Shown piece after piece: positions 7,392-16,423 of a stretch of DNA of 19,023 nt. Source of the stretch: Bacillota bacterium (lineage in GTDB: Bacteria; Bacillota; Bacilli; Alicyclobacillales; SLC66); assembly GCA_021797415.1 (NCBI GenBank), contig JAJZZT010000310.1, positions 1 through 19,023 of the forward strand. Reading direction: 5' to 3'. Made by a program: the position numbers and the translations under genes. How positions within the stretch are numbered: position 1 is the first letter of the stretch; each line of letters begins with the position of its first letter. The notes under the pieces are model-generated. The model ran no database searches. It saw only the letters and a program-made list of their open reading frames with translations, and had not been told where the DNA came from.

Positions 7392-7482
7392 AAGGGGTGT
7401 GCGCAGGCAGTTCGTTCAACCGGCCGTTCAACCGGACAAGGGGTGTGTGCGGCAACCCGTTCAACCGGCCGTTCAACCGGAC
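7392..7482. repeat. Two 45-bp tandem repeats, each with an internal 12-bp duplication, at the end of secA
   Basis: Unit 1 is about 7392-7437 and unit 2 is 7438-7482. Each begins AAGGGGTGTG and ends with two copies of GTTCAACCGGMC (7414-7437 and 7459-7482, 24 bases identical between units). One indel and a few substitutions separate the left parts. The second unit covers the last codons and stop of secA. This is hierarchical repetition: 12-bp units inside 45-bp units. Confidence 0.85.
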
Positions 7483-9860
7483 GTGGAAGAGTACGTCGGC
7501 TCCCGCTCCGGCAGGTCGCCCTGGACCGACACCTGGGCTTTGAAGACGTAGGTCACAACCTCTTCCTGGATGCTGTGAATCATGTCGTTGAACATCTGGA
7601 AGCCTTCCTGCTGGTAGGCGGTGAGCGGATCGATCTGGCCGTACGCGCGCAGGTGGATGCCCTGGCGCAGCGTCTCCATGGCGTCGATATGATCCATCCA
7701 CTTGGCGTCCACCGAGCGCAACACGACAACGCGTTCCAGCTCCCGCAGAAATTCGCCGAGCTGCTCCTCCCGCGCCTGGTATTCGACCTCAATCTGGTCG
7801 TACAGGAAATCCTGCAATTCTTCCCTCTCCAAACGGCGGAGTTCTTCCTCCGTCAGACGGCCCGGAGTCAGGAACACGTGCTCCCCGTAGTCGATCAGGC
7901 CCTTGATATCCCAGTCCTCCGGAACCTGATCCACAAGGCAGTACGTCTGCAGCATGAAATCCACAAGATCATGGCACATGCCCGCCACGATTTCCCGCAG
8001 ATTCTGTTCTTCCAGAATCTTCATACGCTGTTTGTAGACCACTTCCCGCTGTTTGTTCATCACGTCGTCGTACTTGAGCACGTGCTTCCGGATATCGTAA
8101 TTGTTCGCCTCGACTTTTTTCTGCGCCCGTTCGATCGCCCGCGTCACCATCTTGTTTTCGATCGGCTGGTCTTCCTCGATTCCCAGTTTATCCATCAGGC
8201 CCATGATGTTGTCGGCGCCGAACAGCCGCATCAGATCGTCCTGCAAAGACAGATAGAACTGGGACGAGCCCGGATCTCCCTGGCGACCCGAACGGCCGCG
8301 CAACTGATTGTCAATCCGGCGGCTCTCATGCCGCTCCGTGCCGATGATATGCAGGCCGCCGACCTCCGCCACGCCGAGGCCGAGCAGAATGTCGGTCCCG
8401 CGTCCGGCCATGTTCGTGGCGATCGTCACCAGGTTGGGTTCCCCAGCGTGCGACACGATTTCCGCCTCCCGCTCGTGGTGCTTTGCGTTCAGCACCTGGT
8501 GGGAAATGCCGCGCGCCTTCAGCAGGCCGGAAAGATACTCGGACTTTTCGATCGAGGTCGTCCCCACGAGAACCGGCTGCCCCACCTTGTGTCGCCTGGC
8601 AATTTCGTCGACCACCGCGTTGAATTTGCCCTTCACGCTCTTGTAGACGACATCCGAGAGGTCCTGGCGCTGGTTGGGCTTATTTGTCGGAGTGGTCATG
8701 ACATCCATGGCGTAGATATCGATGAGTTCCTGCTCTTCCGTCTTGGCTGTCCCGGTCATTCCAGCCAGTTTACGGTACATCCGGAAGTAGTTTTGCAGCG
8801 TGATCGTCGCGAGGGTGCGCGACTCGTTCTGCACCTTCACGCCTTCCTTGGCCTCGATCGCCTGGTGCAGACCGTCGCTGTACCGCCTGCCCTGCATCAT
8901 GCGGCCCGTGAATTCATCGACGATCACCACTTCCTCGCCGAGCACGACGTAATCCTTGTCGCGGTGCATCAGCGCGTGCGCCTTGAGAGCCTGCGTGATA
9001 TGGTGATTGATCGTGATATGGTCGGGGTCGTAGAGGTTTTGCAGGTGAAAGTATCGCTCCGCCTTATGAACGCCGTTCTCCGTAAGATTCGCGGTCCTGG
9101 CCTTCTCATCGAACGTATAGTCGTCTTCGTGTTTCAGGGAGCGCACAAACAGGTCCGCCATGAAATACAGGTCGGTCGACTTCTCCGCCGGACCCGAAAT
9201 GATGAGCGGCGTGCGCGCCTCGTCGATGAGAATGCTGTCCACCTCGTCGACGATGGCGTAGGCGAGCGGACGCTGTACCATCTCCGACAGGCTCAGGACC
9301 ATGTTGTCCCGCAGATAGTCGAAGCCGAACTCATTGTTGGTCCCGTATGTGACGTCTGCCCGATACGCTTCCTGCTTTTCGGCGTGCGACATGCCGTGGA
9401 TATTCAGTCCCACGGTCAGCCCCAGCATCCGATGGACCTGCCCCATCCACTCACTGTCGCGCTTGGCCAGATAGTCGTTGACCGTCACGATGTGCACGCC
9501 GTCTCCGGTCAGTGCGTTCAGATAGGCGGGAAGCGTGGCGACCAGCGTCTTGCCTTCGCCTGTCCGCATTTCCGCAACGCGCCCCTGATGAAGGACAATC
9601 CCACCCACCATCTGCACGTCAAAATGGCGCATGCCAAGCACACGTTTCGCGGCTTCCCGGACAACCGCAAACGCTTCTGGCAGGATGACATCGAGTTTTT
9701 CACCGTTTGTGTGGCGCTCTTTGAACAGAGCCGTCTGTCCGCGCAAGTCCTCGTCGGACAACGCTTCGAAACGCGGTTCCAGTTCGCGGATTCGGTCAAC
9801 CGTCCGGAACATTTTTTTCAATTCCCGTTCATTGCCCAGAAGCTTGTCTAACAACCCCAT
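7473..9860 (-). CDS. secA: SecA preprotein translocase ATPase, without the C-terminal zinc motif
   Basis: Motor ATPase that drives secretory proteins through SecYEG at the membrane. The 795-residue product carries Walker A MRTGEGKT at 98-105, [14 protein letters not shown], the [10 protein letters not shown] motif, and NMAGRGTDI with [13 protein letters not shown] in the second motor domain. These mark a housekeeping SecA. The protein ends about 18 residues after the helical scaffold ([11 protein letters not shown]) and lacks the CxCxSG...CC zinc-binding tail of many SecA proteins; B. subtilis SecA is 841 residues. A 45-bp tandem repeat covers the stop codon. ATG at 9860-9858; the nearest GGGGAG is about 13 nt upstream, so initiation may be modest. 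prfB follows downstream. Confidence 0.97.
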
Positions 9861-11693: not shown

Positions 11694-11739
11694 GGGATAT
11701 GTGATAAACCGAATTTTCGCGGGCTTTATCACACGTCCC
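11694..11739. repeat. Palindromic repeat, copy A, in the leader of the methyltransferase gene
   Basis: Arms at 11694-11708 (GGGATATGTGATAAA) and 11725-11739 (TTTATCACACGTCCC) enclose a 16-nt loop beginning CCGAAT. The same structure recurs at 14395-14441, with shared loop sequence and a compensatory T-A to G-C change in the stem. The element ends about 20 bp before the GTG start codon of the methyltransferase gene. It is not followed by a T-run in either direction, so it is not a standard terminator. Confidence 0.8.
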
Positions 11740-13787: not shown

Positions 13788-13997
13788 ATGGACCAGTCGT
13801 TCATTCGGCCTGTTTCCGGCCCGACAGGCGCAAGCCCGGCGGCGCAGAACGAAGGAAAAACGCAACAGGGAGCGCCGTACAGATCTTCAAGAGCGGCCGA
13901 TCTCGAACGCGTCAAGCAAGCCATCGCGAACGGGGCGCACACGGTTGATCTCGGTACGCTTGCCCGCGCCCTGATTGACGGCAAACACATCGGTTGA
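13788..13997 (+). CDS. flgM: FlgM, anti-sigma factor for the flagellar sigma factor
   Basis: Small protein that binds and inhibits the flagellar sigma factor (SigD/FliA) until the hook-basal body is finished. The 69-residue product has a poorly conserved, disordered N-terminal half and the family's C-terminal helix pattern (RVKQAIANGAHTVDLGTLARALID), which contacts sigma. GGGGGAG lies just before the ATG at 13788. It is shorter than the B. subtilis protein (88 residues). Identification also rests on the downstream flgN-flgK-flgL order. Confidence 0.88.
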   Translation: MDQSFIRPVSGPTGASPAAQNEGKTQQGAPYRSSRAADLERVKQAIANGAHTVDLGTLARALIDGKHIG

Positions 13998-14043
13998 TCC
14001 CGGCGGACCATCGGGGGCGGCATCTGCGGAATGGAGCGGGCGC

Positions 14044-14346
14044 ATGGATATGGAAACAAGCGATACGGCGGCGCAGTGCATCGCGCAGCTTGAGAAGTTG
14101 AACAAACAGGTCATGGACGCGCTTATCGCCAATGAAGTGGGACGAATCGAAGAACTCGTCGTTGAACAGTGCGTCTGGGCGCGCAAGCTGCAGGGCAGTC
14201 CCGTCGGAGAGGCGGAACGCGAACGGTTGAAGAGGCTGACGGATGCGATACAGGCACAGCAGGCGCTGGTGGGACAAGCGTTGCTCATGGTCGAAGGCGT
14301 CATGCAGACGCTTGCCGGTCATCTTGCATTTTCCCGCGTGGGCTAA
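14044..14346 (+). CDS. flgN: FlgN-like export chaperone for hook-associated proteins
   Basis: Cytoplasmic chaperone for FlgK and FlgL. The 100-residue product is predicted to be almost wholly helical (AQLEKLNKQVMDALIANEV..., AEREREL-like segments), the expected fold of this poorly conserved family. The family is assigned mainly from size, helix pattern and position between flgM and flgK. The ATG at 14044 has GGAG seven bases upstream; the frame is open upstream into flgM but that part is not needed. A 393-bp repeat-rich gap follows. Confidence 0.75.
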   Translation: MDMETSDTAAQCIAQLEKLNKQVMDALIANEVGRIEELVVEQCVWARKLQGSPVGEAERERLKRLTDAIQAQQALVGQALLMVEGVMQTLAGHLAFSRVG

Positions 14347-14357
14347 AGCGCGTCCGA

Positions 14358-14556
14358 TTCAAAAAGAGGGCAGGTAAGACCCACGCAGTGCAATGGGACA
14401 TGGGATCAACCGAATCTGCAGTGGACTTTATCCCATGTCCCATTGGGAGCAGACAGAAATACGGACCGAGCGTACGTTTTTGGTACGTGAGGGAGCATTT
14501 CTGGCGATGACGCCGCAATGCGCCGGGGAGTTCTACCCACTTTTTGAACTACCTCT
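14358..14556. mobile_element. MITE-like repeat, copy 1 (interrupted)
   Basis: A 148-bp core, 98% identical by eye (3 differences) to copy 2, plus a 51-bp insertion at 14394-14444. The ends are inverted repeats: TTCAAAAAGAGGGCAG at the left, and CTACCCACTTTTTGAA at the right (TTCAAAAAGTGGGTAG when complemented). An internal hairpin CGTAC-N7-GTACG lies near 14471-14487. Within the core the frame TERTFLVREGAFLAM... stays open to a TAA at 14558-14560. No transposase is present, so any movement would need one in trans. Confidence 0.7.
14394..14444. repeat. Palindromic repeat, copy B, inserted in MITE-like copy 1
   Basis: 51 bp present in copy 1 and absent from copy 2, where CAA is followed directly by GGAAGC. 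Its ends are inverted repeats: CAATGGGACATGGGAT pairs perfectly with ATCCCATGTCCCATTG (16 bp, partly using the flank). Core arms are 14395-14409 and 14427-14441, with a 17-nt loop starting CCGAAT. It is related to copy A at 11694-11739 in arms and loop. This supports insertion as a unit, although deletion from copy 2 cannot be excluded. Confidence 0.8.
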
Positions 14557-14568
14557 ATAAGGATCCAG

Positions 14569-14716
14569 TTCAAAAAGAGGGCAGGTAAGACCCACGCAGT
14601 GCAAGGAAGCAGACAGAAATGCGGACCGAGCGTACGTTTTTGGTACGTGAGGGAGCATTTCTGGCGATGACGCCGCAATGCGCCGGGGAGTTCTGCCCAC
14701 TTTTTGAACTACCTCT
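14569..14716. mobile_element. MITE-like repeat, copy 2 (uninterrupted)
   Basis: 148 bp, with element ends best set at 14567-14710: AGTTCAAAAAGAGGGCAG at the left and CTGCCCACTTTTTGAACT at the right, 18-bp terminal inverted repeats with one mismatch. No obvious target-site duplication is seen. It is separated from copy 1 by ATAAGGATCCAG. The plus-strand frame MRTERTFLVREGAFLAM opens at ATG 14619; copy 1 has ATA there. The element ends 30 bp before the flgK start. Confidence 0.7.
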
Positions 14717-14739: not shown

Positions 14740-16224
14740 ATGCAGATCTCAACATTCCTTCCACTCAACACCGGCATGACGGCTCTGAATGCCGCATCCC
14801 AGGCGGAAAGCGTGATCGCCAACAACATCGCGAACGCCAATACGCCGGGCTATGCGCAGGAAGTCGCACAACTGGGCGAATACGGATCGTTCCCGGTACT
14901 CCCGTCAGGCAACGCGCCGCTGCTGTCCGGCCAGACGGGCGAGGGCGTCACCGTGAATCAGGTGACGCGGCAGATCAGCGCTTTCTACAACGCCCAGGAC
15001 CGGGCCAATCAGGGATCGTACCAGATGTACAAAACGCACAACGATATCCTCACACAGATCGAAGGCATCCTGAACGAACCCAGTTCGCAAAGCATGCAGC
15101 ACGCGCTGGACCAGTTCTTTGCATCCTGGCAGACACTGTCCACAGACCCCGGCAATACGGCGGCCGCACAGGCGGTGGTATCCCAGGCGCAGAGCCTTGG
15201 GCAGACCTTCCAGACGGTGGGCAACCAACTCTCCGCCATGCAGGCAAACCTTCAAACGGTGGTCGGCACCGCACAATCATCCGCGCAGGGCGGGCCTTCC
15301 GGACAACTGGGAGAACTCGTGTCGTACGCCGCGCAGGTTGCGCAACTGAACTCGCAGATCGTGAGCGCCGGCCAGACCGGCGCGAGTCCCAACACGCTGG
15401 AAGACCAGCGCAGCGTTCTTCTCGACAAGATGGCGCAGTTGGCCAACATCAAGTATTTCCAGGATCCGCAGATGACAGGCGGGGCGACTCCGGCGCAAAA
15501 GTACCCCGGATACCTCGATGTCACACTGTCGGCAGGCAACCAGACGATTTACCTGGTGGGACCGCCGGGATCGCCCTCGCAGCCCGCGCCGACCGACGCG
15601 GCGCTCCTAGGCGCGATCACATCCGGCTCGATCGCGGGGAATGTGGCGGGCATCACGGATGTGCGCAACACGCTGGCTTACTTAAACGCATATATGAAGA
15701 ACCTCGCATCGCAGGTCAACCAGGCGTACGGCGGCGCCGTTTTCAATGTGAATCCGGCCGGAACAGGCACACCGCCCGCAGACAGTCCGGTCGTGTACCT
15801 GACGACCGCCTCCGCCTTCACGGCGTCCTCCCTGTCCACCGCGGGCTCCGCAAATCCGGGAAACAACAGCACGGCGCAGGCTGTCGCAAACGTGCAGAAC
15901 GCGACGACGGCATTTTCCTATAATCTTTATAACTCGATAACAGGCGTTCCTTCCTCCGCACAGAATTTCACCGGGACGTTCGACCAGGGAGTCGCCCAGG
16001 TCGTCTCGTCCATAGGAACCGAAACGGCGAACACCATTTCGAGCGAACAGACGGCAAACGCGCTCGCACAGCAGTCGTCCCAGTTGCGCCAGTCGGTGTC
16101 CGGCGTCGACATCAACCAACAGGCGGCACAGATGGTGCAGTATCAGAACGCGTACAGCGCGGCGGCCAAATTCATCACCGTGTTTGACCAGATGATCCAG
16201 ACGCTGTTGAGCAGCGTGCCATAA
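14740..16224 (+). CDS. flgK: FlgK, flagellar hook-associated protein 1
   Basis: Forms the first junction layer between hook and filament; exported by the flagellar type III system and chaperoned by FlgN. The 494-residue product has the N-terminal rod/hook-type motif (ALNAASQAESVIANNIANAN, then TPGYAQEV) and the matching C-terminal helix (VDINQQAAQMVQYQNAYSAA...FDQMIQTLLS), as all FlgK/FlgE-type axial proteins do. The middle is Ala/Ser/Thr/Gln-rich. The start is ATG at 14740, with AAAGGA about 12 nt upstream. Twelve further codons upstream run into the MITE-like repeat and are not conserved. flgL follows after a 262-bp repeat-rich gap. Confidence 0.95.
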   Translation: MQISTFLPLNTGMTALNAASQAESVIANNIANANTPGYAQEVAQLGEYGSFPVLPSGNAPLLSGQTGEGVTVNQVTRQISAFYNAQDRANQGSYQMYKTHNDILTQIEGILNEPSSQSMQHALDQFFASWQTLSTDPGNTAAAQAVVSQAQSLGQTFQTVGNQLSAMQANLQTVVGTAQSSAQGGPSGQLGELVSYAAQVAQLNSQIVSAGQTGASPNTLEDQRSVLLDKMAQLANIKYFQDPQMTGGATPAQKYPGYLDVTLSAGNQTIYLVGPPGSPSQPAPTDAALLGAITSGSIAGNVAGITDVRNTLAYLNAYMKNLASQVNQAYGGAVFNVNPAGTGTPPADSPVVYLTTASAFTASSLSTAGSANPGNNSTAQAVANVQNATTAFSYNLYNSITGVPSSAQNFTGTFDQGVAQVVSSIGTETANTISSEQTANALAQQSSQLRQSVSGVDINQQAAQMVQYQNAYSAAAKFITVFDQMIQTLLSSVP

Positions 16225-16235
16225 TTTCCCGTCCG

Positions 16236-16389
16236 GGGCCGGCGCCTGCTCTGTGCCCGGCGGGATCCGCGCCATGGACAAGGTTCGATGGGGCTTCGTC
16301 ATCCTCTTTGCTCGTCGCGAGTTCCGCACCATGGACAAAGTTTGCTGGGCCGTCGCCCTGCCCTATGCCCGGCGAGTTCCGCGAAGCGG
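16236..16389. repeat. Three degenerate ~55-bp tandem units between flgK and flgL
   Basis: Units start at 16236, 16290 and 16347. Shared blocks are GGGCCGKCGCC, TGCCCGGCGRG, TTCCGC and CCATGGACAARG (the last in units 1 and 2 at 16272-16283 and 16329-16340). Unit 3 is truncated and continues into an inverted copy of its own start. Unlike the clean 14-bp array by mcsA, these copies are well diverged, so the array is older or under selection. No ORF with a ribosome site uses it. Confidence 0.65.
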
Positions 16390-16423
16390 TGTCTGAGCAG
16401 AGGGCATAGGGCAGGGCGACGGC
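16349..16423. repeat. Perfect 22-bp inverted repeat before flgL
   Basis: Arms 16349-16370 and 16402-16423 are exact reverse complements; the left arm runs from GCCGTCGCCC to CTATGCCC. The 31-nt loop contains its own small hairpin (CCGC-GAA-GCGG). In RNA this would be an extremely stable stem of mostly G-C pairs. No T-run follows, so it is not a classic terminator; it could end or protect the flgK message, or be a mobile palindrome. Confidence 0.9.

Follow-up and report, generated by a model that had tools for sequence, protein, structure and literature searches.

The gap between a short ORF at the flgN position and flgK of a Bacillota bacterium holds two near-identical repeats, one of them split by a short palindrome, and raises the question of which form came first, what the palindrome and its host repeat are, and how either could have moved there. 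The window, i.e. the whole stretch of DNA that was analysed, comprises 19,023 nt of contig JAJZZT010000310.1, and relatives were collected by a FlgK search. FlgK is 83% identical in the closest relative (locus L001, genome G001), followed by Alicyclobacillus montanus with 44%. The host repeat is termed M157 and the palindrome family PAL, and the features of the locus are as follows.

11694–11739, no strand: second PAL-family palindrome, decayed, 46 bp, found as a degenerate pattern match
13975–14346, + strand: short ORF at the flgN position, directly 5' of the array, without Pfam match
14347–14556, + strand: M157 copy 1, palindrome-interrupted, aligns with 46 relatives; 14349–14556 scores 78.4 bits with a covariance model that excludes this copy but includes its near twin, copy 2, as one of 24 sequences
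14391–14394, + strand: left 4-bp flank CAAT of the palindrome (CAAG in the empty site), from the copy 2 comparison and length bookkeeping
14395–14441, no strand: 47-bp putative IS1182-type MITE of the PAL family, ends GGGACATGGGAT and ATCCCATGTCCC
14442–14445, + strand: right 4-bp flank ATTG of the palindrome, from the copy 2 comparison and length bookkeeping
14557–14559, + strand: ATA spacer between the M157 copies, read from the sequence
14560–14716, + strand: M157 copy 2, uninterrupted, with the empty site GCAA^GGAAGC; fold z −6.4; covariance-model score 165.5 bits, by construction, as copy 2 is itself in the model
14740–16224, + strand: flgK, directly 3' of the array (PF22638, PF00460, PF06429)

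Copy 1 carries 51 extra bases that copy 2 lacks, bounded by 16-bp perfect inverted ends (14391–14406 and 14430–14445), both as claimed by an earlier, sequence-only reading. Its count of three differing bases outside the insert is correct for the shared core, but further differences exist at the extreme left tip, and its two 148-bp repeats are real but cover only what both copies share of a 157-bp element that has inverted ends of its own. The site GCAA^GGAAGC is unbroken in copy 2 and in all 46 aligned M157 relatives (20 from G012, 21 from G017, four from G014, and one from G019), and GCAAGGAAGC is the M157 consensus at the insertion position. As copy 2 and these relatives all run through, the palindrome was inserted into copy 1, and the pair is the before-and-after record it had been taken for, with orthologous or paralogous sites that lack the palindrome. 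Replication slippage can delete perfect palindromes, so both copies might once have been filled and copy 2 might have lost its palindrome by precise deletion, the outcome that the sequence-only reading had set against its own view. With nothing inserted at this position in 46 of 46 aligned copies from four genomes and with the consensus reading GCAAGGAAGC there, such a loss is scarcely credible.

The flgN–flgK junction of G001 reads ...GGGTTAAGGGAGGATCGACCGTCATG, without the repeat and with the gene order of the window, including a short ORF at the flgN position in the same place. The A. montanus junction has no repeat either, the covariance model detected no M157 at loci L001 and L002, and none was found in the whole genomes G001 and G002. 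Judging from the repeat-free G001 junction, the M157 array was most likely acquired once the lineage had separated from that of G001.

The extra 51 bases are real but best read as a 47-bp element (14395–14441) plus 4 bp, not as one unit. The flanking tetramers CAAT and ATTG form no direct repeat in copy 1, where an intact target duplication is not visible, and their divergence from CAAG exceeds that seen between copy 1 and copy 2 elsewhere. CAAT is probably the remnant of a 4-bp target duplication and ATTG its diverged partner. The palindromic relative reported 2.7 kb away was recovered at 11694–11739 through a degenerate 25-base core common to both palindromes, which matched twice in the window and never in 200 shuffles; the pattern was built from both palindromes, and the second match alone is the surprise. 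Other repeats in the window comprise a 22-bp perfect inverted repeat with a 31-nt spacer in the flgK–flgL gap (16349–16423), adjoined by a 57-bp imperfect tandem duplication (16260–16373), repeated CGTTCAACCGGCCGTTCAACCGGAC units between secA and prfB (7406–7494), and 14-bp tandem repeats of the CCGTCAACCGCAAG type between ctsR and mcsA-like genes (2434–2481).

The dispersed copies expected of a mobile palindrome are abundant in three of the 18 family genomes: the PAL end pattern GGGACATGKGATAAA (at most one mismatch) was found 41 times in G001, 108 times in G012, and 24 times in G013, as well as once or twice in five further family genomes, while the reversed pattern, used as a control, was found in none of G001, G012, and G013. 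Read with their flanks, the PAL copies are pairs of inverted ends. Relaxed end patterns yielded 53 distinct copies, counting in both window copies and the composites described below, of which 27 have the modal length of 120 bp and 16 are no longer than 63 bp, compared to 47 bp for the window element. Family ends read GGGACATGTGATAAA, and the copies are short, gene-less, and bounded by terminal inverted repeats, as is typical of MITEs. Two copies are unusually long (L225, G012 C126, 194 bp; L221, G001 C76, 191 bp), the central hairpin unit having apparently been repeated in tandem. The window palindrome as DNA query had matches at E ≤ 0.1 in four of the 18 genomes, the best full-length one being 79% identical (E 8e-4, G001 C84), and on these sequence grounds it is a diverged PAL member. 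A scan of viral_contigs with a 15-base PAL end returned 16 loci; neither the 120-bp PAL nor the array matched plasmids or phages by BLAST.

PAL occupies a CTAG-like target of 4 bp. Among 106 flanks, C, T, A, and G occur at the successive positions in 86, 72, 73, and 89, respectively, and exact CTAG is present on both flanks of 13 of the 53 copies, on one flank of 18, and on neither of 22. Direct flank identity (15 of 53 copies; shuffled, 10.0) shows just a modest excess because the target itself is nearly fixed, and duplication is better supported by length bookkeeping. The length added equals the element plus 4 bp at three nested insertions, namely in the window (target CAAG), in the G012 composites (target CTTG), and at G012 C248, where GGGT-CGAG-AACTCT, the intact form as taken from G018, became GGGT-CTAG-[PAL]-CAAG-AACTCT. 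The single G014 composite has one base beyond element plus 4 bp.

These ends and this target recur in an IS1182-family element. In G039, a genome of the same order, an element bounded by GGGTCCTGTGATAAA and GGGTCCTGTGAAAAA is present 12 times (1844 bp in ten copies, 1640 and 1841 bp in the others), each time with CTAG on both sides. By our own count, the ends of this element share 13 and 12 of 15 bases with GGGACATGTGATAAA and 11 of 15 with the left PAL end of the window. Its transposase matches NCBIfam NF033551 (transpos_IS1182) with an E-value of 1.4e-70 and 238.6 bits, below the cut-off of 270. A full-scoring IS1182-family element (455.6 bits) adjoins PAL copies in G012 and has other ends, also with CTAG. 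From the similar ends and the shared CTAG target we conclude that PAL is probably an IS1182-type MITE, with this family as the candidate transposase type. PAL also resembles IS-derived MITEs in being gene-less and of internally shortened lengths. Unlike in IS1182-family elements, no transposase was found between PAL ends among 16 PF01609 and eight PF13358 matches in G001, G012, G013, G014, and G017; M157 ends were likewise found around none of the PF01609 and PF13358 transposase loci. Searches about 3 kb inward from single PAL ends in G001, G012, and G013, allowing up to three or four mismatches in the partner, returned only MITEs, broken ends, or chance gene matches.

The sequence-only reading had assigned the palindrome to the REP or IS200/IS605 type, which a Y1 transposase would mobilise in the form of a single-stranded DNA hairpin. 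REP/REPIN elements with their RAYT (Y1) transposase are likewise small palindromes moved in trans, the window palindrome is short, gene-less, and dispersed in relatives, and the CTAG at its foot superficially resembles REP tags. IS200/IS605 elements, however, are not known to make a target duplication, whereas the three nested insertions each added 4 bp. PAL departs from REP/REPIN in that its terminal inverted repeats abut a CTAG-like target and in that an IS1182-family element has similar ends and the same target. Moreover, Pfam identified no Y1 domain among the 16 main window proteins (two without any match) and no transposase at all, the latter as already noted from the sequence. We consider the REP or IS200/IS605 assignment very improbable; what stands of the earlier proposal is a mobile, gene-less palindrome that most likely moves in trans. 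As a probable IS1182-type MITE, the window palindrome adds one more example to a known kind, here caught in a filled/empty pair.

What the sequence-only reading overlooked is that the surrounding repeat, too, is a MITE, and the less ordinary one of the pair. The M157 consensus ends are AGAGCCTGTTCAAAAAG and AGAGGTTGTTCAAAAAG, and most copies are 156–160 bp long. Of 85 copies, 65 have the same 3 bp on both sides, compared to a mean of 12.8 and a maximum of 22 after shuffling; at 2, 4, or 5 bp there is no excess identity. The duplications are mostly ATA, TAA, and TAT. ATA, which also separates the two window copies, is the commonest (23 of 65). Dispersed copies of M157 thus combine inverted ends with a duplication of fixed length, as MITEs do, and this 3-bp duplication together with the copy number indicates that M157 moves by DNA transposition. 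Searches detected it in ten of 18 family genomes (E ≤ 0.01) and, across the order, in 13 of 59 (E ≤ 1e-6), with 46 matching stretches in G012, some of them parts of one copy, and 32 in G017. G018 has 94 + 86 M157-type end matches, and the copies read (e.g., among L389–L408) are of a diverged 159-bp type. M157 has diverged along much of its length in the forms from G016 and G018 and mainly in the end stem in those from G057 and G058, yet the hairpin and motifs are kept in all of them. Solo remnants of about 22–29 bp in G017 (L226, L227, L228) consist of two fused ends with ATA or TAT flanks, apparently through internal deletions between short repeats.

No transposase partner for M157 was found by end-pattern searches of G017 and 49 genomes of the order or in fetched flanks, nor was one seen at solitary M157 ends of G017 or at 30 loci that matched the end pattern in other genomes. 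A 152-bp G018 element as query retrieved only itself and one weak partial match, the G018-type M157 had no BLAST match among plasmids, and scanning viral_contigs with an M157 end returned zero loci. For the 39 copies inspected, neighbouring ORFs were co-directional in 22 of 33 cases upstream and 16 of 28 downstream, a weak bias in gene orientation; the counts rest on mechanical ORF calls, which misjudged the window itself.

The conserved fold of M157 was analysed in an alignment of 24 chosen copies, i.e. L277 and 23 of the 85 distinct ones, the row for the window being wider by two bases. Of the 44 consensus pairs, 29 show changes on both sides, and 97.3% of cells are paired; sliding the helix partners cuts pairing to 30.7–48.5%, and none of 500 shuffles equalled M157 in any of five measures. 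GAGTTCT is present in all 24 copies, and GGT(A/C)AGA is nearly fixed. The strand running from GGTAAGA to GAGTTCT, which in the window has the sense of the flagellar genes, folds, as a consensus, at −69.7 kcal/mol compared to −53.2 kcal/mol for the other strand. Non-Watson–Crick cells comprise 29 G.U versus five A.C on the forward strand and 21 versus 16 on the reverse. Deviations within single genomes, summed over five, comprise 26 G.U versus eight A.C, these cells not being independent events. Taken together, the pair changes on both sides, the nearly fixed loop motifs, and the better fold of one strand suggest that M157, once inserted, may also have been kept as an RNA hairpin. No Rfam family matched the window array, five M157-relative loci, or seven alphaproteobacterial loci (see below) at gathering score, and sub-threshold matches were to microRNA, viral, and sRNA models only.

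PAL served as a control for this interpretation, and its result is mixed. Its two strands fold near-symmetrically (−40.2 versus −41.6 kcal/mol), yet 11 of the 31 pairs of this plain palindrome also have both sides changed, and G.U outnumbers A.C with either strand folded (21:13 and 19:8). Part of the G.U bias of M157 therefore reflects the method, the fold-energy contrast between M157 and PAL is the cleaner comparison, and covariation alone does not prove RNA function; palindromic MITEs may show paired change in general. M157 could accordingly be an ordinary MITE, in which template switching between the arms or gene conversion, and not selection on RNA, produced the paired changes. The behaviour of PAL speaks for this, but such correction should erase asymmetric internal loops, and those of M157 persist (GAGTTCT in 24 of 24, GGT(A/C)AGA nearly fixed) along with a one-strand bias in energy and G.U counts, whereas PAL is near-symmetric in fold energy. 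We regard the ordinary-MITE explanation as quite possible, if short of probable.

M157 and PAL nest repeatedly. Five composites were fetched (four from G012, one from G014), each with a 120–121-bp PAL in the arm of helix 4, a position different from that in window copy 1. In the folds of all five, PAL forms a side hairpin. The minimum-energy structure of window copy 1 likewise has PAL folded into a separate hairpin; it retains the outer stem and apex of M157, and the region between these two is partly rearranged. Three of the five composites have a 3-bp duplication of their own (L182, TAA; L184, AAA; L185, TAT), which indicates that the composite itself has moved.

Long hairpins with the apex AGCGTAC..GTACGTGAGCAC, as in M157, were also observed on alphaproteobacterial plasmids (20 records, seven stretches of which, L549–L555, were read). 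The hairpins of L551 and L552 lie between convergent gene ends, that of L552 is CTAG-flanked, and the L549 and L555 stretches are near-identical and derive from two Sphingobium strains. Hairpin repeats with the same apex are present on the viral contigs L507 (13134–13270) and L452 (858–995), which were preselected by the apex motif (matched by at least 80 loci, of which 80 were scored); the L507 repeat had no BLAST match among phages. The covariance model (R1) was rejected as proof of kinship: the alphaproteobacterial repeats scored 23–35 bits, and a plain PAL hairpin (L306) scored 36.8 bits, from which it follows that R1 responds to long hairpins generally. Their putative kinship to M157 rests on the apex motif and is a lead only.

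We tentatively put forward, as a possibility on which we would not rely, a joint reading in which M157 would be a mobile structured RNA, with selection for a defined fold acting on its sense strand. The GGTAAGA/GAGTTCT internal loops and the apex GAGYGTACG..GGTACRTGAG would be its nearly fixed parts, belonging to no Rfam family; the element would reach tens, probably about a hundred, copies per genome and may have kin in Alphaproteobacteria with the same apex and other outer stems; and inserted palindromic MITEs would be accommodated as side hairpins that leave the host fold mostly intact, such that composites travel on.

Among known repeats, the bcr1/BCR repeats of the Bacillus cereus group resemble M157 in being short, dispersed, of mobile character, and present in tens of copies per genome. 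According to PMC6542083, BCRs reach 130 copies in one strain, their mobility is linked to a TTTAT motif, and no group other than that of B. cereus is reported to have them. Compared by description, M157 differs in its order and in its A/T-rich duplications, which are 3 bp and not TTTAT. The Correia/NEMIS elements of Neisseria are small MITEs with inverted ends and target duplication, and their transcripts form stem-loops cut by RNase III (PMC2229807, PMC10969869). M157 is likened to them by description, and its stem-loop is predicted, whereas RNase III cutting is known for Correia/NEMIS. Our literature search retrieved no paper joining IS1182, MITE, and CTAG, one (PMC3852290) with IS1182 and MITE alongside other terms, and nothing on miniature inverted-repeat in Alicyclobacillus. 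Among the matches listed for a motif, all papers were unrelated by title; most subscription journals lie outside the searched literature, so the element may be published.

The position of the array, in sense orientation between the flgN-position ORF and flgK, further raises the possibility that it regulates flgK: within the flagellar operon, its hairpins could terminate or attenuate transcription or be a site for RNase III. The predicted fold is stable and Correia/NEMIS provide precedents (PMC10969869 and PMC2229807), but G001 keeps the gene order without the array, and by eye no T-run follows the hairpin. We regard regulation of flgK as unlikely.

The explanation that we consider probable for the locus as a whole is that of two nested, unrelated, gene-less transposons: M157, and subsequently an IS1182-type PAL moved in trans. 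M157 would have entered the gap between the flgN-position ORF and flgK first, twice in tandem, after the split from G001. The 47-bp PAL, an internally shortened MITE of IS1182 type, would then have inserted at CAAG of copy 1 with a staggered 4-bp duplication that has since decayed. An IS1182-family DDE transposase, acting in trans, would bind the GGGACATGTGATAAA-like ends as double-stranded DNA and join them to CTAG-like tetramers. M157 would have spread by DNA transposition through a transposase and then also have been kept as an RNA hairpin.

The nested pair provides a clear natural record of the polarity of a MITE insertion and ties a bacterial palindrome family to IS1182-type ends and a CTAG target. 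M157, with its conserved fold, is the more interesting part. A palindrome nested in a host element does not necessarily immobilise it, as the composites demonstrate, and if the M157 fold is selected as RNA, the success of a MITE may hinge on how its transcript acts in host messages.
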